Both the position numbers and the translations under genes were made by a program. Below the pieces are notes generated by a model. The model ran no database searches, was not told the origin of the DNA, and saw only the letters and a program-made list of their open reading frames with translations. A DNA stretch of 41,105 nucleotides from a virus: positions 1-41,105 of IMG/VR virus record IMGVR_UViG_3300005289_000010. One strand, given 5' to 3'. Below are positions 168 through 41,105 of the stretch, in pieces (within the stretch, counting starts at the first letter, position 1; each line of letters begins with the position of its first letter).

Positions 168-415
168 TACTGTGCGGCTCCTGCTGCGGCGATGGCGCGC
201 TTGATGGAGTCACCGGTAACGTCCACCTTGCCGGCGGGGTCCACGTAGTTGTACACGTTCTCGCGGACTTCAATCGTGTCCGTGCCCTGGCGGCCATCCT
301 CGGCGGTGTAGGTGGTCTTCAGCGTGACCGTGCCGGTGGGGTTGTACGTCACCTTGACGCGGGCAACGCCGCCGGACTGGACGTGTTCTTCAGTGGTGGT
401 AAAGTTGGCGCTCAT
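167..415 (-). CDS. Hypothetical protein, 82 aa
   Basis: I do not recognise this protein. It is rich in Thr and Val with alternating hydrophobic residues in the first 55 positions, which suggests a small beta-strand domain, followed by an Ala-rich helical tail. No membrane segment, cysteine or signal peptide is visible. The ATG at 415 overlaps the endonuclease VII stop (ATGA) and is preceded by AAGGAG, seven bases upstream and still inside the endonuclease gene. Its own stop overlaps the exonuclease start, so it is translated between two nucleases. Confidence 0.75.
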   Translation of the reverse strand: MSANFTTTEEHVQSGGVARVKVTYNPTGTVTLKTTYTAEDGRQGTDTIEVRENVYNYVDPAGKVDVTGDSIKRAIAAAGAAQ

Positions 416-789
416 GCTTGCTCCTTGGATGCGGCCCGGCGTTTCCGGGCTTGGGTGTTGCGCTTGACGCGCTTCTCGTCAGCGGTGCGGAACGTGGGAT
501 AGGCCACGCCCAGCCCGTCGCTGAACAGGTAGGGGATGATGCCCTGCACGAACTGGGCAAGGGCAACGGTGCTGGTCAGCTTGGCGATGCGGCGGTGGTT
601 CTCGATCTTGCCAAGCATGGAGTTGCAACCGCGGTGCAGGACACCTCGGCATTCTCCTGTGGCGTGATCATGATCCAGCACCGCGTCGGCCGGGGCCAGT
701 GGCTGCTGACACAGCGCGCACTTATTCCCCTGGTTGGCCAGCGTTTGCAGCCTGAAGGGCCGCAAGGCGGATGGACTCAATCTCTGCAT
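412..789 (-). CDS. Recombination endonuclease VII (Holliday junction resolvase)
   Basis: This 125-aa protein has the endonuclease VII His-Me finger signature: CALCQQPL near residue 25, then DHDHATGECRGVLH and a closing CN, with two Cys pairs for structural zinc. The family (T4 gp49 is the type member) cuts branched DNA and clears junctions before packaging. I chose the ATG at 789, which begins MQRLSPSALRPF; an in-frame GTG at 837 would add 16 residues unlike the family. The gene overlaps the 3' end of the 5'-3' exonuclease by 68 bases. The C-terminus is Arg/Lys-rich, suitable for DNA binding. Confidence 0.88.
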   Translation of the reverse strand: MQRLSPSALRPFRLQTLANQGNKCALCQQPLAPADAVLDHDHATGECRGVLHRGCNSMLGKIENHRRIAKLTSTVALAQFVQGIIPYLFSDGLGVAYPTFRTADEKRVKRNTQARKRRAASKEQA

Positions 790-1741
790 GTTGTTCCAGT
801 ACCCGGGTCTCCAGGCGGTTGAAGGCGGCGAGCACACGTGCTACACCAGGGTGGTTCATGGCGGGCAGGAAGCCGGCGAAGTTGCGGACGCTGGCGCCGG
901 CATCGGTGCGCAGCCACAGCAGCGCGGCCTGCTCGGCGAAACGATCCTGCCACTCCTCGCCGTAGTTCTCCGCGTACATCCGGGTCACCACGTTGAAGGC
1001 TTCGATGTGATTCTCAGCTTGGGCCAGGGCCTTGCCAGCCGTGACCTCGCCGACCTTCTTGCCCAGGTACAGTGGCAAGCCGGGGATGGCGTCAGCTGAA
1101 TCACCTTGCAGCATCTGCAACCAGAACCACCTGTAGCCGTACTGCAATCCGTCCGGGCTGCGCTTGATGTCGTACGCACCCTTCGGAACCTCGACCACCT
1201 GGTACGTGTTCCAGTCCACATGCAGGCCGGGCAGCATGCGCATGTCCTTGTCGGCCGTGTAGATAGCAGCGACGGGCTGCTTGTACAGCTCCACGCAGTT
1301 GTGCGCCACGAAGGCCATGCCGTCGTCCGCCTCTCGATCCTTCCAGAGCTTCACCGAGAAGGCGTCACCCTGGTAGGTCTCCAGGTAGTTGCGCAGGAAC
1401 TCCCAGTTCTTGGGCCGGCGGCTGCCGCTGCGCTGCCCTTGGTAGGGCTTGACCGTGGCGATGTAGTAGCGATACCCCTTGTGGCTGCCGGACATCGTGA
1501 GGTGAACCACGATCTTGCTGGCGCCGACGATTGCTCGTCCGGCCTCCAGCTTGTTCAGCACGTTGGCCCGCGCCCTGCCTGGTTCGCACTCGTCGTTGCC
1601 GGAACAGAAGTAGGCCAGGTAATCACCGTCAACGTGGAGGGTCAGGTCCTTGTTGACGGCAGGCAAGACAACCCCCGGCATGGGGGCTGCCTCTGCTACC
1701 TTAGCGATCTGGTCCTTGAGGGAATCAGTAAGGGATGTCAT
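722..1741 (-). CDS. 5'-3' exonuclease (FEN/T7 gp6-like)
   Basis: This 339-aa protein shows FEN/PIN-type exonuclease motifs in order: HVDGDYLAY at about 36-44, a KPYQGQR helical-arch motif near 105, READDGMA with acidic metal ligands, TADKDMRMLPG, and LQGDSADAIPGLP, the last resembling the helix-hairpin-helix part of the fold. The family removes RNA primers and degrades host DNA from 5' ends. The open frame extends upstream to 1933, but that Arg/Ser-rich stretch is only the SSB tail read in another frame. The ATG at 1741, giving MTSLTDSLKD, overlaps the SSB gene by 17 bases and is the likely start. The C-terminal 40 residues form a predicted helix. Confidence 0.9.
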   Translation of the reverse strand: MTSLTDSLKDQIAKVAEAAPMPGVVLPAVNKDLTLHVDGDYLAYFCSGNDECEPGRARANVLNKLEAGRAIVGASKIVVHLTMSGSHKGYRYYIATVKPYQGQRSGSRRPKNWEFLRNYLETYQGDAFSVKLWKDREADDGMAFVAHNCVELYKQPVAAIYTADKDMRMLPGLHVDWNTYQVVEVPKGAYDIKRSPDGLQYGYRWFWLQMLQGDSADAIPGLPLYLGKKVGEVTAGKALAQAENHIEAFNVVTRMYAENYGEEWQDRFAEQAALLWLRTDAGASVRNFAGFLPAMNHPGVARVLAAFNRLETRVLEQHAEIESIRLAALQAANAGQPGE

Positions 1742-2645
1742 CGTCACCGATACCGTCCAGCGGGTCAGCGGATGCTGCCTTCGCCGGCTTGGGCTTGGGT
1801 TTCGGGGCAGGCTTGGCAGGCGCCTTGGGCTTCTTGGGCGGCTCCTGCTGCGGCGACTGGTCTTCGATGTCCGTGCTCGGATCATCTTCACCCGGGTCAT
1901 CGTCCGGCGTATCCTCGTCACCATCCGGGTCATCGTCGTCGGGCATGGCGCCGGCCAGCAGCTGCTCCAGCGGGCTGCCCTTGTAGTTGACGGCAGCGAG
2001 CACGGTTTGCTGGATGACGTTCTTGGTCTTGCCTTCCTCGTACTCGCCGTCGATGAACAGGCTGTCCCACATCTCCTTGCTTGGCTGGTCCCACACGAAC
2101 AGGCGCAGCTCGCTGATGGCTTCGGGCACCTTCAGCTTCGTGCTCTCCCCGGTCTCGGGGTCCTCACGATACGGCGGGCGGATGCTGTAGCCAGCGTCGT
2201 TGCGGAGGTTGGCGTACACCTTGTCTTCCTTGCCGGTGTTGTGGGTGATGCGGCCGAGGAAACCTTCGCCCAGCATCTGTGCCATGTGGGTGATCTCGCT
2301 GCGGTTGTTGCGCATCGAGTTGAAGATCTTGAAGAAGTGTGCCTTCTCCGACAAGCTCAGGGTCTCGGTGATCGTGATGCGAGTGGGGATCAGCGTGCCA
2401 TCGTCCAGCTTCTTGGGCGGATAGTTCTTCCCGTGGACCTCGAAGATCAGGCGCACCTTGTCCTTGATCTTGGTCTCGCCCTTGTACGTGGACTTCTGTT
2501 TGCCCAGCTCGATGTAGCCGATGAAGCGCAGGAAGCAAGGCCCCGCGGCAGGCGGCTCGTAGTCGCCACCACCCTTCTGCGCTTCTTGCATGTTGGGTGC
2601 GTTCTTGGCGATCTGGCCAACAGCTTTCTTGAGATCAAAACCCAT
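1725..2645 (-). CDS. Probable single-stranded DNA-binding protein with bacterial-SSB-like C-terminal tip
   Basis: This 306-aa protein lies directly between DNA polymerase and the 5'-3' exonuclease, where phiKMV-type phages carry a poorly annotated replication protein. Residues 1-220 form a compact domain with mixed basic and aromatic patches. A very acidic stretch follows (about 232-265), then a Pro/Lys/Ala linker (about 270-292), and the protein ends GIGDDDIPY. That ending nearly equals the DDDIPF tip by which bacterial SSB recruits repair and replication proteins. SSB function is inferred from position, the acidic tail and the tip; I did not identify an OB fold directly. GGAG lies nine bases before the ATG, and the gap to the polymerase stop is three bases. 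Confidence 0.75.
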   Translation of the reverse strand: MGFDLKKAVGQIAKNAPNMQEAQKGGGDYEPPAAGPCFLRFIGYIELGKQKSTYKGETKIKDKVRLIFEVHGKNYPPKKLDDGTLIPTRITITETLSLSEKAHFFKIFNSMRNNRSEITHMAQMLGEGFLGRITHNTGKEDKVYANLRNDAGYSIRPPYREDPETGESTKLKVPEAISELRLFVWDQPSKEMWDSLFIDGEYEEGKTKNVIQQTVLAAVNYKGSPLEQLLAGAMPDDDDPDGDEDTPDDDPGEDDPSTDIEDQSPQQEPPKKPKAPAKPAPKPKPKPAKAASADPLDGIGDDDIPY

Positions 2646-2648
2646 TCT

Positions 2649-5030
2649 TCAATTCTCCAGGATGAACGAGGGCACGCGGCCCTCCATGTATTTGGTCCGC
2701 AGATAGGACCGGACTTGAGCAGACTGCTCGTTGAACTTCTCGTCGTACCCGATCTCTTCGATCATGGACGAACCCCAGCTGGTGTCAGACGGCACACCCA
2801 CCGGCAGCGGCCAGTCGAAGTAGAACTCCATGAAGTCGCTGGCCGCCTCCATGCAGGCATGCAGTAGCACCGCTGCCTTGCGTGCCACCTTCTCGTCCGC
2901 GTCCAGATAGGTCGCGTCGTGGACCGTGTTGACCAGCAGGGCCAGGCCGTCGAAGTTCTTCCGGGTGTAGAACTCACGCACCGCCAGCCACAGTGCAGCC
3001 TTCATGAACTCACCGCCCTCACCCTGGACAGGGTAGTTGCGGATCTCAGTGGGCATGAAGCTGGTCAGCGTGCCACGCTTGACCTGCCACTTGGGCGCCG
3101 GTACTTCGGTCCAGGTGTAGATCTTCCCACTCGGTGCCTGGTACGTGCCGCGCCCAAGCTGTATGTTCAGACCAGGAACCTCGGGGTGCATCAGGAAACG
3201 CGACGTGGGCTTGCGGCTTTGCTGGATGCTAACCGTCAGCTTCTCGTACCAGGACTCGACACCAGGGTATCGGATCTTGTCGGCCTCAACCCAGCCCTCG
3301 ACCACCTCGACGGGGATCTTCAGGCCGGCCGCAATCTTCGGAGCGCCGGCACCGTAGGCACGCTGGAAGCTGAACACCTTGATGGCTGTCCGCTTCTCAT
3401 CCCACAGCTTGCGCAGCGCCGCGTCGATCTCGCCCTTACCCTTGGCCAGGCGGAACACCTCGTCGTACTCCATACCCTCGGCAGTTGCCAGCCGTGCGCA
3501 GTGCATGTCCAAGCCAGCACGCAGGTCAGAGATGAGTTGTTCGTCTTGCGTCAGGTTGGCCTGGATGTACACCTCCAGCGCGCTGAAGTCAGACTGGATG
3601 ATCTTGCCCTTGGCACCGAAGCGGCTGGTGAACACGGACTTGATCTGCGAGGTCTTGCCCTTCGGTACGTTCTGAAGGTTGGGATTGCTCGCGCTGAAGC
3701 GGCCGGTCACCGTGCTGGTCATGTTGATGGAGCCATGCACGATGCCATCGTCACCCACCAGGGTGAGCATGCCCTTCGGCTCCTCGTCCTCGGTGATGTA
3801 GTAGGTGCCCAGGTCCTTGGTCAGTGCCGCCACCTTGGACAGCGTGACCAGGAACGGTACGTCATCGCGCAGGCCCAGCTCCTCAATCACCTCGCCGGCC
3901 ACGGACCACAAGCCAGGCGTGCTGCTGGCCCACTTGTCATCCGGCTCCGTCATGCGGGGAAAGTCGTAGCTGAACTCACCGATGCGGGTCTTGGCCCCGC
4001 GCTCCAGGTCAGGCACCTTGACCTTCTTGGTCTTGATCTCGCCCTTGTTCTTGCCTCCGGCGAAGCGCACCGCGTTGGTTCCTTCGGGGGCGAGACCATT
4101 GTTCCAGTCATCAAGGCTGATCGTGGTGTCGTTGTCCAACACCACATGCAGCTCGTCCTTCTGGTAGTAGGTCTTGTTGCCCTCTTCGTCCAGCACGTAC
4201 TCACGCGCCTTGTAGTTGACGGAGCCACCGAAGATCAGCGGCGACAGATGGTAGCGGTTGGTCCAGTTGAACTCGAAGGGCAGGTCCGCAGGCAGGTAGC
4301 CGCGCAGCTCCTCGGTGTACCCGGCCAGCTCAGCACGCAGCTCGGCTGCAATCACCAGGCCGCGCGCCTTGTCCACGTGCATCCCGTTGCGCATCATCTC
4401 GACCACGGCAACCAAGGCACCCATGTTCAGCAGCAGGGACTTGAGCTGGCCGCGGCCGCGCGCCTTCTTGAGCTGGCCAAGGAAGGCAAGCTCCGTGTTG
4501 CCGATGTCACCGAAGTCTTTCCACTTGCCCTTGTCGTCACGCTCACCAATGAGGTAACGCTTGAGCAGATCGGGGTCGATGTCCTCGGTCATGACACCGG
4601 CTTCCCACAGCACCTTGACCTCATCCACCTTGGTCGTGCCGCCGTAGCGCGGGGCCACCTCGTTGAGCGACAGCATCTGTGCCTCTTGCACCATGCCATC
4701 CAGCAGGTACTCGGCAAGCTGGCAGTCCCAGATCTGTCCGCCCTTGGCGATCCAGTCCATCCAGGCTTCCAGGTTGCGCTTGTCCTGCAATGCCCACAGC
4801 AGATCGAAGCCGATGTTGAAGCCGACCAGGATGCGGGTGCCCTCCAGCATGGAGGTGAACCAGTCCTCGGGCAGGGGCACGGCCTTGCTGCTGGTGTAGT
4901 GCCAGTCCGGTTCCTGCTTGGCGCGCTTCCAGCCAGTGGCCACGATGAAATTCTCGGGGTGCCACGGGCTGGCCTTGCGCTTGAACAGGGTACGTGTGCC
5001 TGTCTCCAGGTCCCATACGGTATGGCTCAT
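2649..5030 (-). CDS. DNA polymerase, PolA family with 3'-5' proofreading domain
   Basis: A 793-aa T7-type replicative polymerase. The exonuclease domain has WDLETG (Asp7, Glu9), GFNIGFD (Asp76) and FGDIGNTE. The polymerase domain has motif A SDFSALE (Asp481), motif B RTAIKVFSFQRAYG (Arg547, Lys551, Phe555, Tyr559) and motif C NTVHDATYLD (His704, Asp705). Position 555 aligns with T7 Tyr526 and is Phe, as in E. coli Pol I and Taq. Residues 265-370 contain a large insert between thumb and palm where T7 binds thioredoxin; no clear thioredoxin-binding sequence is visible. The ATG at 5030 overlaps the stop of the upstream 56-aa gene (ATGA); a GTG four codons earlier is less likely. Confidence 0.97.
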   Translation of the reverse strand: MSHTVWDLETGTRTLFKRKASPWHPENFIVATGWKRAKQEPDWHYTSSKAVPLPEDWFTSMLEGTRILVGFNIGFDLLWALQDKRNLEAWMDWIAKGGQIWDCQLAEYLLDGMVQEAQMLSLNEVAPRYGGTTKVDEVKVLWEAGVMTEDIDPDLLKRYLIGERDDKGKWKDFGDIGNTELAFLGQLKKARGRGQLKSLLLNMGALVAVVEMMRNGMHVDKARGLVIAAELRAELAGYTEELRGYLPADLPFEFNWTNRYHLSPLIFGGSVNYKAREYVLDEEGNKTYYQKDELHVVLDNDTTISLDDWNNGLAPEGTNAVRFAGGKNKGEIKTKKVKVPDLERGAKTRIGEFSYDFPRMTEPDDKWASSTPGLWSVAGEVIEELGLRDDVPFLVTLSKVAALTKDLGTYYITEDEEPKGMLTLVGDDGIVHGSINMTSTVTGRFSASNPNLQNVPKGKTSQIKSVFTSRFGAKGKIIQSDFSALEVYIQANLTQDEQLISDLRAGLDMHCARLATAEGMEYDEVFRLAKGKGEIDAALRKLWDEKRTAIKVFSFQRAYGAGAPKIAAGLKIPVEVVEGWVEADKIRYPGVESWYEKLTVSIQQSRKPTSRFLMHPEVPGLNIQLGRGTYQAPSGKIYTWTEVPAPKWQVKRGTLTSFMPTEIRNYPVQGEGGEFMKAALWLAVREFYTRKNFDGLALLVNTVHDATYLDADEKVARKAAVLLHACMEAASDFMEFYFDWPLPVGVPSDTSWGSSMIEEIGYDEKFNEQSAQVRSYLRTKYMEGRVPSFILEN

Positions 5031-5197
5031 GCTTGTGCCCACGCATGGACAACGCGAGAGTCCACGTTGTTTTCGTCAGGCTGTATGCTGCCGTCGAGGT
5101 AGCCTTCGAGTACCACCGTCTCTGCCTCACCGGCATCGTGGGCGGTAACGCGAAACTTGCTAACGACGACCTCCTCTATCTCTACGATGTACTCCAT
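5027..5197 (-). CDS. Small protein, 56 aa, between helicase and polymerase
   Basis: This frame starts at ATG 5197 behind GGAGCTACT and ends in a TGA that overlaps the polymerase ATG. The product begins MEYIVEIEEVVVSKFRVTAHDAG, has alternating hydrophobic and charged residues suggesting beta strands, and is acidic. It overlaps the preceding 72-aa gene by 16 bases. Function is unknown; the tight coupling suggests it helps set polymerase translation or acts with the replisome. Confidence 0.72.
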   Translation of the reverse strand: MEYIVEIEEVVVSKFRVTAHDAGEAETVVLEGYLDGSIQPDENNVDSRVVHAWAQA

Positions 5198-5400
5198 AGT
5201 AGCTCCAGTTGATGGTTGTGTTTGACGGGTGTGTACACCAGGGACTTGAGTGGCAGGTGTAGGCTTAGCTGGCCCCGCCCCGTGTACTGCATGGTGGCTG
5301 GCTCGTACCAGATAGTCGGCTCGCCCGTAAAGTCTTCAAGTCGGGATGGCCCGTAGTACGGCAGGCTGGGGTCGGCAAGGAAGTCGCAGAGGTCAATCAT
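5182..5400 (-). CDS. Small protein, 72 aa
   Basis: The ATG at 5400 lies inside the last codons of the helicase gene (eight-base overlap, ATGATTGA). The product starts MIDLCDFLADPSLPYYG and is Pro/Tyr/Leu-rich, with no membrane segment. A longer in-frame reading to 5544 is the helicase tail in another frame. It lies between helicase and polymerase. Homology is not recognised; function unknown. Confidence 0.65.
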   Translation of the reverse strand: MIDLCDFLADPSLPYYGPSRLEDFTGEPTIWYEPATMQYTGRGQLSLHLPLKSLVYTPVKHNHQLELLWSTS

Positions 5401-6679
5401 CGGGCGCGTCGTCGGGCATGAGATAACGCCCCCGGTCCTCATCAAGGATGACCTCGTAGCCGAAGGGATCTCCCGGCTTGCCAGCCCGGTTGAGCTTGGT
5501 CTTGGGAATACCGATGAAGCGAGACTTCGCAAGAAGCGGATCATTGCTCTTTCCGATTGCGATGAGGAAGTCCAGCGCGCCTTGCTTGCCGGTCTTGCTG
5601 TCCTTCATCATGGCCAGGGTTGGACGGGTCAACCCTTCGGCATCCCCGTTGAGTTGGCTGGTACACAGCACGATGCAGTCATGCTTCACACCGAGGATGC
5701 GTGCCCACTGGTACATGGCCTCCAGGATCTGGTCCGTGCGCTGGCCGCCGTTGGACATCTCGCCGCCGAAGCGAACGTTGTCCACCATGTCGATGACCAC
5801 GATGTACGGGTTGTGCTCTCGGATGATATCCTCAAGCTCACCACTCGACATGTCGTGTGCGTCAAGAACACGAATGCGGCCAGCGCCACCGACTGCTGCG
5901 GCGTAGGCTTGCTTGTGCCCATTGCCCTTCGGCCCGCGTAGCTCACCGATCTCACCGAACGTCATGCCCAGTGCTGACTGCCAGCACCGGCCAACGATTC
6001 GCTTGCTCGGTCCCTCGTTGTTGAACCAGAACACGCCGCGACCATCGGGACACTGCGGCGCCATGAACGTGATCTCGCTGGTGAAGAACGTGGTCTTGCC
6101 AGCGCCGGGGCGCATGGCTACGCAGCCGAAGTCACCAGGACGAAGCGGGCGCATGTACTCATTGAGCACAGACAGCCGCCACTTGATGCCCTCGTCGTTC
6201 TCCTCCTCGTTCAGCAGCTCGTCAATGTCCACGTCGCAGAAGGGCGTCTTCACCTGACGGGCAACGCGCTCCTCGTACTTGTCCATGATGCTGCGCAGGT
6301 GCTGCCCGAACTGGATGTCATCACCGTCAGTGAATGACGTGACCAGATCCTCCAGGGCGCGGGCTGTCTGCGCTGCTACCAAACGCTCTACGATCCCAGC
6401 TCTCACGTCCGCGTCAACATCTTGACGGGCGCGCTTGAGCTGGGCATTGATCAGTGCCAGCTTCTCATCAGCCAGCGAGGGATGTTCGAGCTTCACCCAA
6501 AGGCCGAAGCTGTCGAAGTCGATGACTTGTTGCAGCGGGTTCTCTTTGAACCAGGTGCCGTAGTCCTTGAGTATGGATTCCGTTGCCGGGTCCAGCACTC
6601 GGTCAGGGATGAGCCGGCGCAGGTTATCGTAGTCCTGCCGCCGCTTCATCACCTGAAGCAGGGTAATGTCTAACGCCAC
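5393..6679 (-). CDS. DnaB-like replicative DNA helicase
   Basis: A 428-aa RecA-fold hexameric helicase equivalent to the C-terminal half of T7 gp4. The Walker A motif is RPGAGKTT at about 190-197 and Walker B is IVVIDMVDN at about 293-301; CTSQLNG near 339-345 matches the H3-type sensor. The N-terminal 150 residues are helical and would contact the separate primase. I chose the GTG at 6679, which overlaps the primase stop and has GGAG five bases upstream; an ATG ten codons later (6649) is the alternative. The frame upstream of 6679 is only primase read out of frame. Primase and helicase as two genes is typical of phiKMV-type phages. Confidence 0.93.
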   Translation of the reverse strand: MALDITLLQVMKRRQDYDNLRRLIPDRVLDPATESILKDYGTWFKENPLQQVIDFDSFGLWVKLEHPSLADEKLALINAQLKRARQDVDADVRAGIVERLVAAQTARALEDLVTSFTDGDDIQFGQHLRSIMDKYEERVARQVKTPFCDVDIDELLNEEENDEGIKWRLSVLNEYMRPLRPGDFGCVAMRPGAGKTTFFTSEITFMAPQCPDGRGVFWFNNEGPSKRIVGRCWQSALGMTFGEIGELRGPKGNGHKQAYAAAVGGAGRIRVLDAHDMSSGELEDIIREHNPYIVVIDMVDNVRFGGEMSNGGQRTDQILEAMYQWARILGVKHDCIVLCTSQLNGDAEGLTRPTLAMMKDSKTGKQGALDFLIAIGKSNDPLLAKSRFIGIPKTKLNRAGKPGDPFGYEVILDEDRGRYLMPDDAPDD

Positions 6680-7464
6680 ACATTCTCCAGGATGATGTTG
6701 ATCTCGTCTCGGGTGTACAACTTGGGGTCGTACTCGCCCAGTACGTTGCGGTAGTCCACGCCGAAAACATCCAGGCGCTTTCCAATCTTGCGGGCCGCTG
6801 TCTGTCCTGCCTCGTCGGGGTCCAGCCACACGGATACCGAGCGGCCCCATGCCAACAGCTTGGCCAGGTGTTCGTCGTGCAGCGTGGTCCCGAGCAGGGG
6901 CATGGCGCTGCGCCCAGCCATGTGCATCTTGTACGTGGACAGCAGGTCCTCAGTCAGCACGACAGAGTACCCCTTGTCCACCTTGTCACGGAGTAGCGCC
7001 ACCTCACGCTCGCCGCCGTCGCTGATATACTTGGGCTTGTGCCCTGCCATCACGGCGCGGGCCTGCCAGTGATGCGTGCCTGGGTAAGGCAGCACCACAC
7101 GCATGCTCGGCTCGTGGTAGTAGATGCCCAGCTTGATGGCGTCCACCTCACCGATGCCTGCCTTCAGCAGCCAGAGCTGCGCCTCGACCGGCCAGTCCTC
7201 CCACTTGCGAACAGCAGGCTCGGGCATGGCCTGGGTACGCAGGGTCTTGTCCGCGTCCCGTCGATCCTGGTTGATCTTGATCAGCTCTCCCAGGCTGAGG
7301 CGCTTGGCCTCGTACAGCTTCTCCTTGCAGCGATAGCAGAAGCCACGCCAGCACTCAGGCTCGTTGCTCACGGACAGGCTACGGTCGCCGTTGGGTGAGC
7401 AGTCATGCTGGATCTTCCGGCTCCTGCCTACGGGTAATGCTTGGGCTATGCGTAGCCAGTCCAT
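6670..7464 (-). CDS. DNA primase (zinc ribbon plus TOPRIM)
   Basis: A 264-aa primase. The N-terminal zinc ribbon is formed by His20, Cys22, Cys43 and Cys46 (HDC and CYRC). The TOPRIM core follows, with VVLTEDLLST (Glu172) and WLDPDEAG (Asp215, Asp217) supplying the metal-binding acidic residues that make RNA primers. The size and domain order match the primase half of T7 gp4. It starts at ATG 7464 behind AAGGAG and overlaps the helicase start, so the two subunits are translated together. Confidence 0.93.
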   Translation of the reverse strand: MDWLRIAQALPVGRSRKIQHDCSPNGDRSLSVSNEPECWRGFCYRCKEKLYEAKRLSLGELIKINQDRRDADKTLRTQAMPEPAVRKWEDWPVEAQLWLLKAGIGEVDAIKLGIYYHEPSMRVVLPYPGTHHWQARAVMAGHKPKYISDGGEREVALLRDKVDKGYSVVLTEDLLSTYKMHMAGRSAMPLLGTTLHDEHLAKLLAWGRSVSVWLDPDEAGQTAARKIGKRLDVFGVDYRNVLGEYDPKLYTRDEINIILENVWR

Positions 7465-17845: not shown

Positions 17846-20356
17846 TTACTCACCCTGAAGGGTAGCACGGATCTGGGCCAGTTCCTCTTTCAAGGATTGG
17901 ATCTGTCGTTGCTGCTCCTGGAGGGCGGCCACAACATCAGGCAGCACCTTGCTCAGGTCAACACCCTGCATGACAGGCACGGTATTGCCGACCTCATCCA
18001 CCCGGGTCTGATCTTTATAGCCAGTGACTGCTTGGGGAATGACATCCTGCAACTCGTGGGCGACGAACCCACGCAGGGGCTTGTTGACCACGGGTACGCC
18101 GTGCATGCGGAACTCCACCGGGCGCAAGCGCATGATGTTGTCCAGGCAACCCGCCCCGTCCAGTTCACCGAGTACCGTTTTGGAACGGTAGTCAGAGGTG
18201 GTGGAGTACACCACAGACAGCGCGGAGTTAGACTGGATGAAACCAGCCACCGCTCCGTTGTACGCCTGGAACTGGATGGCCACGCCGTCAGCGAACAGCT
18301 CCGGCCGGTAGACGGTCCCGTACTGGGTGCCTCCTCCGGTGTAGTAGACGTGGGTGCGTGCGTTGATAGACGGCGTGTACAGGTACGGACCAAAGATCCA
18401 GGAACCCGTGGACAGGATACGGGCACACTCGGTCGTCGCGGAGATAAACCGGAACGCTCCCGGAACCGCTGCGGTCCCGTGGCGGCTGAACGTCAGCTCA
18501 CCATGGCCCAGCGTGCCGTTGTACCCCAGCGCCACGAAGGCGCTGTCTGCGGAAGCCGCACTACGAAAGATTGCGTGCGCACTGTTCTGGCCAGCGGGAG
18601 GGACCACAGGCAGGTAGGTCGTTGCGGCCTTCTTGTTTACGAAGCTCCAGGTGTCGGCTGTGTGTGTGCCGTCGAAGTTGCCCGCCACTTGCCCGTTGGT
18701 AGCACCGGAGAGATCCAGCGTGCCGGTCACGGGAGTGGAGGCAGCGTAAGCCGATCCGTTCCAGCGATACCAACCCGCGCCGTCTACGTACACATCCCCC
18801 ATGTCCGCAGTGGGAAGGCGGGATACGGCGGATACCGCACCGATCATCCTCCAGGTGCCCCAGGATGACCCGGAGAAGATCCGCTGGCAAAGGCGAGGCT
18901 TCTCACCCGCCACAGGGATGGTTGCCGTTTGGATTATGTAGTCCGACGCCACCCAGTGAACGACGACGCTGGCCCCTGCCACGTTCGTGCCGATGGGGGG
19001 CCAGTTGCTCCCACCTGTGATCACGGTGCCACTGCGGGATGTGTAGTACGTGTTGTCTGCTGTCAGGGTGTTGCAGTCCGTGGCAGCCGTCAAGTACACG
19101 TGACTCATCACCTCGTTCTTGCGGGCAACCTCACGCCAGGGACCCCAGGCGCCACTCACCTGGTTAGTGCAGCTACGCCAGAAGCGCCGGCCGCCACTGT
19201 TGTTAGCCCCTGGCTCCGCTCCGTACACGATGTACTCTTGGGACAGGAGGTTTGCAGCGCTCACACCGTTAGCTGCCCATACCAGGAGTAGACCAGCGAG
19301 CGCTACGGGATAAGAAGCACCACCAGCCACTGCACCAGCCGTGGCATTCTGTGCGTACAGGCCACGGCTCCGGTAATCGTCCAGACTGTGGGCCGTGGCG
19401 GGCAGCAGAATCGGGTTGACCCGCGGTTCCATGGCCGACACACGCGCCTCAAAGCTGTTGGCGGTCGCCTCAGCGTCGTTGGCCGTGTCCAGTGCCTCGT
19501 TGGCAGTGGCAGCAATGCCGTTGGCCGTGGTCTCCGCAGCCTCCGCGGTGTCCAAAGCCTCCTGGGCCGTGGCTGCGATGCCGTTGGCCACCGACAGGGC
19601 GTTGTTCGCCGTGCCTGTGGCGCCGTTGGCGATAGTGACAGCGTCTTCCGCCGTGTCCAGGGCCGCAGCAGCGGTGCCCGTAGCAGCCACAGCAGACGCG
19701 TTGGCGTTGGTAGCAGCCAGGTTGGCCGCATCCGCAGCCTCAGTGGCCAGGATAGCAGCCTCTTCGGCGCCGGCCACGTCCTCCACAGCCTGGTTGGCCG
19801 TGGCGATGGCGGTGTTGGCCAGGCTGACCGCGCTGGCAGCCGTAACGTTGGCAGCAGCGGCGGACGTGATGGCACTATCAGCCTTCGCGTCGGCGCCGTT
19901 GGCCGTGTCTTCCACGTCAGCGAGTCGGTCCAGCACCGCTTGCGAGAATTCTGCCGTCTCGTCCAGGGCGTCGGCGAACCGGTCCACCATCTCAGCAGTC
20001 GCATACACGGTCTGCTGGTTGCTGGTGTCCAGGTTCTTCTCGATCATGAGCGCGCCATCGGTGTAATCCAACAGCGGCTCATCCTTGGGCGAGTTGCGGC
20101 GCACCTCCAGGGTGCTGCCGACAGGAACTGCCGGCGTGACCTGGAGGCGCGTGGGGAGAATGAAGTTGCCAGGACCCAGAGGATAAGGCGTGCGCACCCC
20201 CGTGGTATCATTCACGATGGTGGCCTGCACGTGGTCCTGGCTGATGTAGCCCGGTGACACCCCGGCGAACGACAAGTCCCACTGCGTGGTGGAACCGTCG
20301 CCGGGGAACCGATTCAGAGCGAAGCGATACCCAGGGGTATCAAAGGGATCAGCCAT
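17846..20356 (-). CDS. Tail fibre with S74 intramolecular chaperone
   Basis: An 836-aa fibre. Residues 1-140 match the T7 gp17-type attachment domain (FALNRFPGDG; IEKNLDTSNQQTVYATAEMVDRFADAL). Residues 141-303 are an Ala/Asn-rich coiled coil with tandem 21-residue repeats at 258-299. A beta-rich receptor-binding region follows. The last 116 residues are a peptidase S74 chaperone beginning SDYRSK near residue 721, where the Ser/Lys pair cleaves the chain after trimer folding, and ending in a coiled coil. Start ATG 20356 behind GGAGG. It determines host range. Confidence 0.93.
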   Translation of the reverse strand: MADPFDTPGYRFALNRFPGDGSTTQWDLSFAGVSPGYISQDHVQATIVNDTTGVRTPYPLGPGNFILPTRLQVTPAVPVGSTLEVRRNSPKDEPLLDYTDGALMIEKNLDTSNQQTVYATAEMVDRFADALDETAEFSQAVLDRLADVEDTANGADAKADSAITSAAAANVTAASAVSLANTAIATANQAVEDVAGAEEAAILATEAADAANLAATNANASAVAATGTAAAALDTAEDAVTIANGATGTANNALSVANGIAATAQEALDTAEAAETTANGIAATANEALDTANDAEATANSFEARVSAMEPRVNPILLPATAHSLDDYRSRGLYAQNATAGAVAGGASYPVALAGLLLVWAANGVSAANLLSQEYIVYGAEPGANNSGGRRFWRSCTNQVSGAWGPWREVARKNEVMSHVYLTAATDCNTLTADNTYYTSRSGTVITGGSNWPPIGTNVAGASVVVHWVASDYIIQTATIPVAGEKPRLCQRIFSGSSWGTWRMIGAVSAVSRLPTADMGDVYVDGAGWYRWNGSAYAASTPVTGTLDLSGATNGQVAGNFDGTHTADTWSFVNKKAATTYLPVVPPAGQNSAHAIFRSAASADSAFVALGYNGTLGHGELTFSRHGTAAVPGAFRFISATTECARILSTGSWIFGPYLYTPSINARTHVYYTGGGTQYGTVYRPELFADGVAIQFQAYNGAVAGFIQSNSALSVVYSTTSDYRSKTVLGELDGAGCLDNIMRLRPVEFRMHGVPVVNKPLRGFVAHELQDVIPQAVTGYKDQTRVDEVGNTVPVMQGVDLSKVLPDVVAALQEQQRQIQSLKEELAQIRATLQGE
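19450..19910 (-). repeat. Internal coding repeats of the tail fibre shaft
   Basis: About 150 codons encode Ala/Asn-rich heptad units. The clearest are two adjacent 63-base units encoding NGIAATAQEALDTAEAAETT and NGIAATANEALDTANDAEAT. They could change length by recombination and so vary shaft length. Confidence 0.7.
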
Positions 20357-40336: not shown

Positions 40337-40440
40337 GCGAGCACCGCGAAGGCAAAGCAGATCGTGAACGTCACGTCCAACACCAGGTGAAAGTTGCGGT
40401 AGGTGAAGCCCTCCACGGGCTTCTTGAACCATTCGATCAT
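40333..40440 (-). CDS. 35-aa membrane peptide
   Basis: The ATG at 40440 overlaps the exonuclease stop and the stop overlaps the next ATG, both as ATGA. The N-terminus (MIEWFKKPVEGFTYRNFHL) is amphipathic; the C-terminus is one hydrophobic helix (VLDVTFTICFAFAVLA). The two couplings make translation likely. Function is unknown. Confidence 0.7.
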   Translation of the reverse strand: MIEWFKKPVEGFTYRNFHLVLDVTFTICFAFAVLA

Positions 40441-41105
40441 CCTGCGTTCCTCAAGATGGTAGCGCGCTTGGCGCGGGAGTTTATGAGGCTGCCGCCTCGG
40501 GACCAGCCGCCGCAGTCCAGGCACTGGTAGCGTTGGTACTCGCCCACCTGGGTGCGGTACGTGCCCCGACGATGAACGTGGTGGCTGCCGCACTTGGAGC
40601 AGGCCGGGATGTCCAGGTCATCGTAGACGCCAGCGACCGGACCACGCGGGTCCCAGGCACGAAGCTTGAGGTACAGCTCCTCAAGGGACTTCACGTCCTG
40701 GATGTTATACTTCTTCATCTCGCGCCATGCTGCCTGGTTGCCCTGCATGCACTGCTTCCACAGCTCGAAGCCAGGGAACTTGCCGTGCAGCATCTTCTTC
40801 TCGGTGCACAGCGTGCTGGTCAGGAACTCCAGGCGGTTGCTGGTGAACTTGAAGTTCTTCTTGGCGATGTCCAGGGTGTCATGCACCTTGTACGGCGACG
40901 GCGGCTTGAAGCCCAGGGTGATGAGGCGGGCGTTGATCTTGGGCACGTCGAATCGCCGGCCGTTGTGCGCCACAACGATGTCCGCCTCGTCCAGGAAACC
41001 GTACAGCCCGGTCAACAGAGCACGATCATCCTCAATGTCAGCGGCTTTGGACTGATCCTGGTAGAACACCTTCTTCTCACCGAGCCACTTGGCCGAGTAC
41101 GACAG
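40437..41105 (-). CDS. DEDDy 3'-5' exonuclease with zinc ribbon, C-terminal part (continues at 1-167)
   Basis: This is the rest of the 261-aa exonuclease whose start is at 167. ExoII is VVAHNGRRFDVPKIN (Asp92) and ExoIII is YNIQDVKSLEELY (Tyr172, Asp176), the DEDDy form. A C-terminal zinc ribbon has CSKC and CLDC (Cys208, 211, 234, 237), which may grip DNA or RNA. A methionine-start reading at 41069 is only an internal GTG. The contig ends inside the gene, with the last 50 bases duplicated at 1-50. It is followed by the 35-aa peptide. Confidence 0.9.
   Translation of the reverse strand: MSYSAKWLGEKKVFYQDQSKAADIEDDRALLTGLYGFLDEADIVVAHNGRRFDVPKINARLITLGFKPPSPYKVHDTLDIAKKNFKFTSNRLEFLTSTLCTEKKMLHGKFPGFELWKQCMQGNQAAWREMKKYNIQDVKSLEELYLKLRAWDPRGPVAGVYDDLDIPACSKCGSHHVHRRGTYRTQVGEYQRYQCLDCGGWSRGGSLINSRAKRATILRNAG
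41056..41105. repeat. Terminal overlap of the contig, copy 2
   Basis: Identical to 1-50. It marks the point where the assembled circle was cut. Confidence 0.95.

Follow-up and report, generated by a model that had tools for sequence, protein, structure and literature searches.

A 306-residue protein of the phage family PHROG 862 ends in DDDIPY, a close likeness of the C-terminal tip of bacterial single-stranded DNA-binding protein (SSB). Comparable tips recur across the family, have many separate origins and are absent from the control proteins encoded at the same loci. The protein is encoded in a virus record of 41,105 bp, the whole of which was analyzed here and is referred to as the window. 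The tip is best read as repeated convergent mimicry of the SSB C terminus (SSB-Ct) that would allow the phage protein to dock host SSB partners. For the complete reading, a putative ssDNA-binding protein with tandem tail motifs, the last of which is an SSB-Ct mimic for host SSB partners, the probability is estimated at slightly more than one half. What is new is a many-times-evolved, family-wide SSB-Ct mimic on an uncharacterized phage replication protein, together with a second motif, DPLxGI, in front of it. The literature searched, which excluded most subscription journals, contains no prior report of an SSB-Ct mimic in this family or of the DPLxGI motif.

The gene set of the window is Autographiviridae-like and includes primase, DnaB-like helicase, family A DNA polymerase, the PHROG 862 gene, 5'-3' exonuclease, and endonuclease VII (Table 1), as well as genes for a phage RNA polymerase, a ligase, a T7-type tail fiber, and a head-tail connector. 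The order helicase, DNA polymerase, PHROG 862 gene, exonuclease, and endonuclease VII is shared by the window and the named phages, and the gene is also located between DNA polymerase and exonuclease in JG068, Cd1, Paku, P26059B, and others. Two start sites in this module deserve comment. The first ∼60 residues of the helicase frame are not covered by the PHROG match and share their DNA with the primase gene, and the true start is probably near 6670, inside the frame. The longest exonuclease frame (722-1933) extends back through the tail of the upstream PHROG 862 gene; the real start is most likely the ATG at 1741, since the resulting MTSLTDSLK matches MSKGLTDTLK of the nearest relative.

Table 1. 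Positions of the PHROG 862 gene, its protein segments, and neighboring replication genes in the window
Feature	Position	Strand	Basis
PHROG 862 member (306 aa) with SSB-like tip, a putative ssDNA-binding protein of the phage	1725..2645	-	ORF, ATG start; PHROG 862 E 2.3e-85
Folded core, residues 1-232	1950..2645	-	AlphaFold2 pLDDT about 96
Disordered tail (residues 233-306), acidic at first, then rich in Pro/Lys, with the motifs last	1728..1949	-	Low pLDDT, composition
Family C-terminal motif DPLDGI, residues 294-299	1749..1766	-	D294, L296 nearly invariant (72-row alignment)
SSB-Ct-like tip DDDIPY, residues 301-306	1728..1745	-	ORF translation
5'-3' exonuclease	722..1741	-	PHROG 107 E 2e-68; likeliest start is ATG at 1741
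Family A DNA polymerase	2649..5042	-	PF00476 E 6.9e-35
DnaB-like helicase	5393..6850	-	PHROG 19, match from residue 67
Primase (Toprim)	6670..7464	-	PHROG 47, PF13155
Endonuclease VII	412..837	-	PF02945 E 1.7e-13

The match to the PHROG 862 profile is full length (residues 3-278 of 306 on positions 4-267 of 276; E 2.3e-85). The family has no assigned function, and the homologs of the 306-residue protein detected by tblastn in 974 phage records are nearly always annotated as hypothetical proteins, with one Klebsiella record naming a single strand DNA binding protein. The NCBIfam model NF046043 (NGO0469 family phage replication initiation protein) aligns with residues 27-149 at E 8.7e-19, with a score of 67.7, below its cut-off of 75. 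Pfam gives no match for the protein and only chance-level matches across 72 family members, and a comparison of the sequence profile with PDB chains gives none up to E 10. Five scans of viral contigs, together with the named phages, yielded 181 distinct homologs with complete C termini. The nearest relative, L001, is 62% identical by tblastn and about 70% identical across the core.

AlphaFold2 modeling with the 72 family members predicts a folded core with a pLDDT of about 96 in the full model and 95.6 for residues 30-234 alone. Strands are predicted at residues 35-54, 57-71, and 88-95, followed by a helix at 103-112, strands at 128-137 and 143-146, and small C-terminal elements. This order of β1-β2-β3-helix-β4-β5 is that of an OB fold. 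Tyr44, Phe68, Phe108, Trp185, and Trp193 are invariant in the 72-row alignment. Structure prediction for an OB fold had been suggested in the preliminary description; the strand order fits at high model confidence, but Foldseek searches of the PDB with the full-length and core-only models return nothing at E <= 0.001. Among the top 50 PDB entries, SSB, RPA, and PriB recur, mixed with ribosomal beta-barrel proteins and an intein-type endonuclease, and TM-scores are low throughout. Against viral models, the family itself comes first (Xp10 37L, phiL7 p43, and proteins of Ralstonia phages), followed by weak matches to DUF669 proteins and to an SSB from a crAss-like phage. The earlier designation as a DNA-binding protein is favored by the position in the replication module, the acidic disordered tail, the OB-like strand order, and the annotation of the Klebsiella homolog; the absence of Pfam matches and of any solved SSB among significant Foldseek results weighs against it. 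Because Foldseek gives no significant solved relative, ssDNA binding stays an inferred activity, plausible rather than proven, although gene context and predicted topology make it likely that the PHROG 862 protein is the ssDNA-binding protein of phage replication.

Two known phage proteins bear on this assignment. T7 gp2.5, the SSB of other Autographiviridae, likewise has an acidic disordered tail with a terminal aromatic residue and likely fills the same replication role, while profile homology between the two is absent (hhalign probability of 0.2% or less). Enc34 ORF6 (DUF2815), once a hypothetical phage replication protein, has been shown to be a T7-type, OB-fold SSB with an acidic tail (PMC5686142). 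The part of the published account used here mentions no SSB-Ct tip, which the tip-bearing members of PHROG 862 possess. DUF2815 has no match among the 72 family members, and the family profile finds no PDB chain up to E 10. Similarly, the bacterial SSB OB domain, PF00436, matches neither the window record nor any of the 72 members.

The tail of the window protein is predicted to be disordered from about residue 235 (pLDDT of about 46-63). The 74 residues past position 232 comprise 23 Asp/Glu, 8 Lys/Arg, and 17 Pro residues. The C-terminal letters of the protein are DPLDGIGDDDIPY, within the longer stretch ADPLDGIGDDDIPY, and the translation of the frame closes with KPAKAASADPLDGIGDDDIPY before the stop codon. 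Among window frames of more than 60 codons, this is the sole one closing with [ILVMAD]P[FYW]. SSB of E. coli ends in DFDDDIPF, so that the window tip differs from the bacterial D-D-D-I-P-F in having a terminal Tyr in place of Phe. As in bacterial SSB, a disordered linker leads to acidic residues and I/L-P-aromatic at the free C terminus; the terminal Tyr and the extra DPLxGI motif before the tip distinguish the phage protein. The likeness of a C-terminal DDDIPY, behind an acidic and Pro-rich linker, to DDDIPF of SSB, as first described, is confirmed by the reading frame and by the family statistics given below.

DPLxGI is the more widespread of the two tail motifs. Most members carry D-[PA]-L-x-G-[IVL]-(x), mostly 6 to 7 residues before the C terminus, and D-x-L/M near the end is found in 155 of the 181 homologs. 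The motif is nearly invariant in the window protein and in the C termini of L018 to L385, as are Asp294 and Leu296 in the 72-row alignment, although the rest of the tail aligns poorly. In most tip-bearers, DPLxGI is located 8 to 15 residues before the end with the SSB-like tip behind it, which indicates that the tip is usually an addition and not a drifted native end. In the Cd1 group, and in a small number of other members, motif and tip are fused (DPLDDIPF and DPLDDDIPW). Both motifs have been lost in three phiKMV-type, Klebsiella, and Vibrio homologs (L009, 2381-3436; L010, 2435-3259; L013, 2447-3262), whose C termini consist of Pro/Ala/Val-rich repeats.

An acidic end with [ILV]P[FYW] is present in 23 of the 181 distinct homologs. 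When each tail is shuffled over 2,000 rounds, 0.02 tips are obtained on average and never more than 1. Of 7,917 internal tail positions, a single one has the tripeptide, and none of the 384 other C termini of long ORFs at the same loci carries the tip. The exact end DDDIPF is found in L131, L136, and L139, and the NCBIfam SSB profile PRK08763 weakly matches the C-terminal end of L136 alone (E 0.015). JG068 gp20 ends in LEDDIPF, Caulobacter phage Cd1 and Brevundimonas phages BC and Babayka end in DPLDDIPF, and Paku ends in NEDLPF. The likeness can span ten residues, as seen when the end of Achromobacter deleyi SSB (NLADMDDDIPF) is compared with that of L054 (DPLADLDDDIPY; LADLDDDIPY). A terminal Tyr or Trp is recurrent among the tips.

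A single origin of the tip, with all tip-bearers in one clade, is rejected (p-AU 3.65e-6). On the tree, the tip state changes at least 13 times, or at least 12 times with weak branches collapsed, compared with 22 for shuffled labels. The lower number than with shuffled labels indicates that tips are also inherited, in addition to being acquired or dropped on repeated occasions. In several lineages, D-[IL]-P-[FY] is kept at the C terminus of tails whose linkers have diverged to 36 to 60% identity. The preliminary description spoke of a copy of the SSB tip; the motif is a real SSB-Ct-like one that recurs in separate branches, but convergent mimicry is the better term, as tips originated repeatedly and the linkers that bear them differ. 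Recurrence of the exact SSB-Ct signature points to selection for pockets that accept it, the simplest candidates being those of host SSB partners, whose recruitment, as proposed in the preliminary description, would best explain why just this sequence recurs.

The genomic arrangement in the window raises the question of whether IPY is here a functionless by-product of a stop codon shifted into the exonuclease start, whatever the role of the tip elsewhere. With its start at 1741, the exonuclease gene overlaps the end of the PHROG 862 gene by 17 nt (ATGACATCCCTTACTGA), so the DIPY codons are read in both frames. The conserved Leu-Thr-Asp codons of the exonuclease set the register of Pro, Tyr, and stop, and the nearest relative ends in GIGEDE with its stop before IPY. 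This geometry, true of the window, does not account for the tip in general: in 18 of the 22 other tip-bearers, the stop alone reaches the exonuclease ATG, with one shared base, and the overlap therefore does not create their tips. Furthermore, neighboring branches in the same subclade carry DDDIPY, DGDDIPF, and a DDEIPD form, and shuffled tails give a chance of ∼1e-4 for any single C terminus to carry [ILV]P[FYW]. A by-product is therefore considered improbable even for the window. Since the window and its nearest relative group with these phages, the relative has lost an ancestral tip or else the window has gained a tip of its own. The tip of the window alone is weaker evidence than the tips of the family.

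A second alternative, also given little weight, is a self-regulating tail in which the acidic-aromatic end folds onto the DNA-binding face of the core as a competitor of ssDNA and without involvement of a partner protein. Such behavior is known for the tails of T7 gp2.5 and Enc34 ORF6 (PMC5686142) and for the tail of E. coli SSB (PMC10164576), and the tail of the window protein is strongly acidic. A generic acidic tail, however, needs no I/L-P-F/Y at the exact C terminus, and 158 of the 181 members lack the tip although family tails average 23% Asp/Glu.

The strongest rival to mimicry directed at host partners is the docking of a phage partner such as the DNA polymerase, helicase, primase, or exonuclease, in which case the likeness to SSB-Ct would mean that the two tips had converged to fit pockets of one type. 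The SSB of phage HK620 has a comparable tip, NDYPPF, which is needed for binding the phage recombination protein Sak4 (PMC5928155); it was the only case of SSB-Ct mimicry by a phage protein found in the literature search. The acidic tail of T7 gp2.5, with its Phe end, serves the polymerase and helicase of its own phage (PMC5686142). The window phage encodes its own polymerase, helicase, primase, exonuclease, and ligase, and some lineages tolerate a terminal Tyr or Trp, which, like the Tyr of the window, possibly suits another pocket and counts against mimicry, as do the nearest relative without IPY, the use of the HK620 tip for Sak4, and the lack of a Foldseek match in the PDB at E <= 0.001. 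On the other hand, the exact host motif is repeatedly gained and lost while gene order is conserved, which is harder to reconcile with a conserved phage partner, and the near-universal DPLxGI is the more natural motif for such a role. HK620 also represents one described phage SSB, in contrast to the repeated appearance of the tip on the uncharacterized core of PHROG 862. The contrast with T7 gp2.5 drawn at the outset, an acidic tail with a terminal Phe and not this motif, holds throughout: in each of the 45 distinct gp2.5 homologs, Phe closes an acidic run, and none ends in IPF or IPY, compared with the acidic tail of the window protein, which closes with IPY. Docking of a phage partner is regarded as rather unlikely, if clearly worth considering.

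Under the favored reading of host-directed mimicry, the OB-like core and disordered acidic tail would form the ssDNA-binding protein of phage replication, with the DPLxGI motif of the family probably serving a partner in the phage replisome. DDDIPY behind it would mimic the bacterial tip. SSB partners hold the C-terminal Phe in a hydrophobic pocket, the carboxylate on a basic lip, and the Asp residues on a basic ridge, and loss of the Phe or a change of the Pro in SSB-Ct destroys or weakens partner binding (PMC10164576). The mimic may let phage-coated ssDNA dock host proteins with such a pocket, lip, and ridge, and the docking could bring helicases, nucleases, primosome functions, or RecO-type functions to phage forks. 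Alternatively, an abundant phage protein might act as a decoy that titrates host SSB partners harmful to phage DNA without using them. Nucleases and helicases are among the SSB partners, and a decoy fits the same sequence evidence as mimicry, which does not separate use from sequestration. The location of the gene in a replication module, among enzymes that would gain from recruitment, makes the decoy the least probable of the alternatives.

The bacterial SSB tip is an address label for replication, repair, and recombination proteins. If host-directed mimicry is correct, a phage protein family has arrived at this label roughly a dozen times with a core unrelated to SSB, which would make it a clear example of motif mimicry by viruses within bacteria, and sister phages with and without the tip would form a natural experiment that could reveal which host proteins a lytic phage borrows. 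A more tentative extension, held at somewhat less than an even chance, is that PHROG 862 repeatedly gains and loses an exact SSB-tip mimic behind DPLxGI and in this way switches between a closed, phage-only replisome and the host SSB network, with the tip state marking lytic phages that exploit host repair and replication proteins. The analysis also proposes a function, ssDNA binding, for a family mostly annotated as hypothetical in nearly 1,000 sequenced phages of Klebsiella, Pseudomonas, Acinetobacter, and others, and draws attention to DPLxGI as its second, near-universal motif. The main text of the JG068 genome paper mentions neither gp20 nor SSB.

A scan of bacterial genome contigs for the PHROG 862 module returned one contig, a 276-kb sequence of Achromobacter deleyi LMG 3458 (NZ_CADIJO010000007.1; L445) with the order polymerase, PHROG 862 gene, and exonuclease, which suggests an integrated or co-assembled Autographiviridae-like phage. 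In the window, the gene for a DNA polymerase exonuclease subunit (40437-41105) runs off the right end and endonuclease VII (1-837 region) lies near the left end. As the corresponding genes are close neighbors in JG068, the record probably represents a circularly permuted phage genome that was opened in this region. The T7-type tail fiber (17846-20356) carries a Peptidase_S74 chaperone domain at its C terminus.
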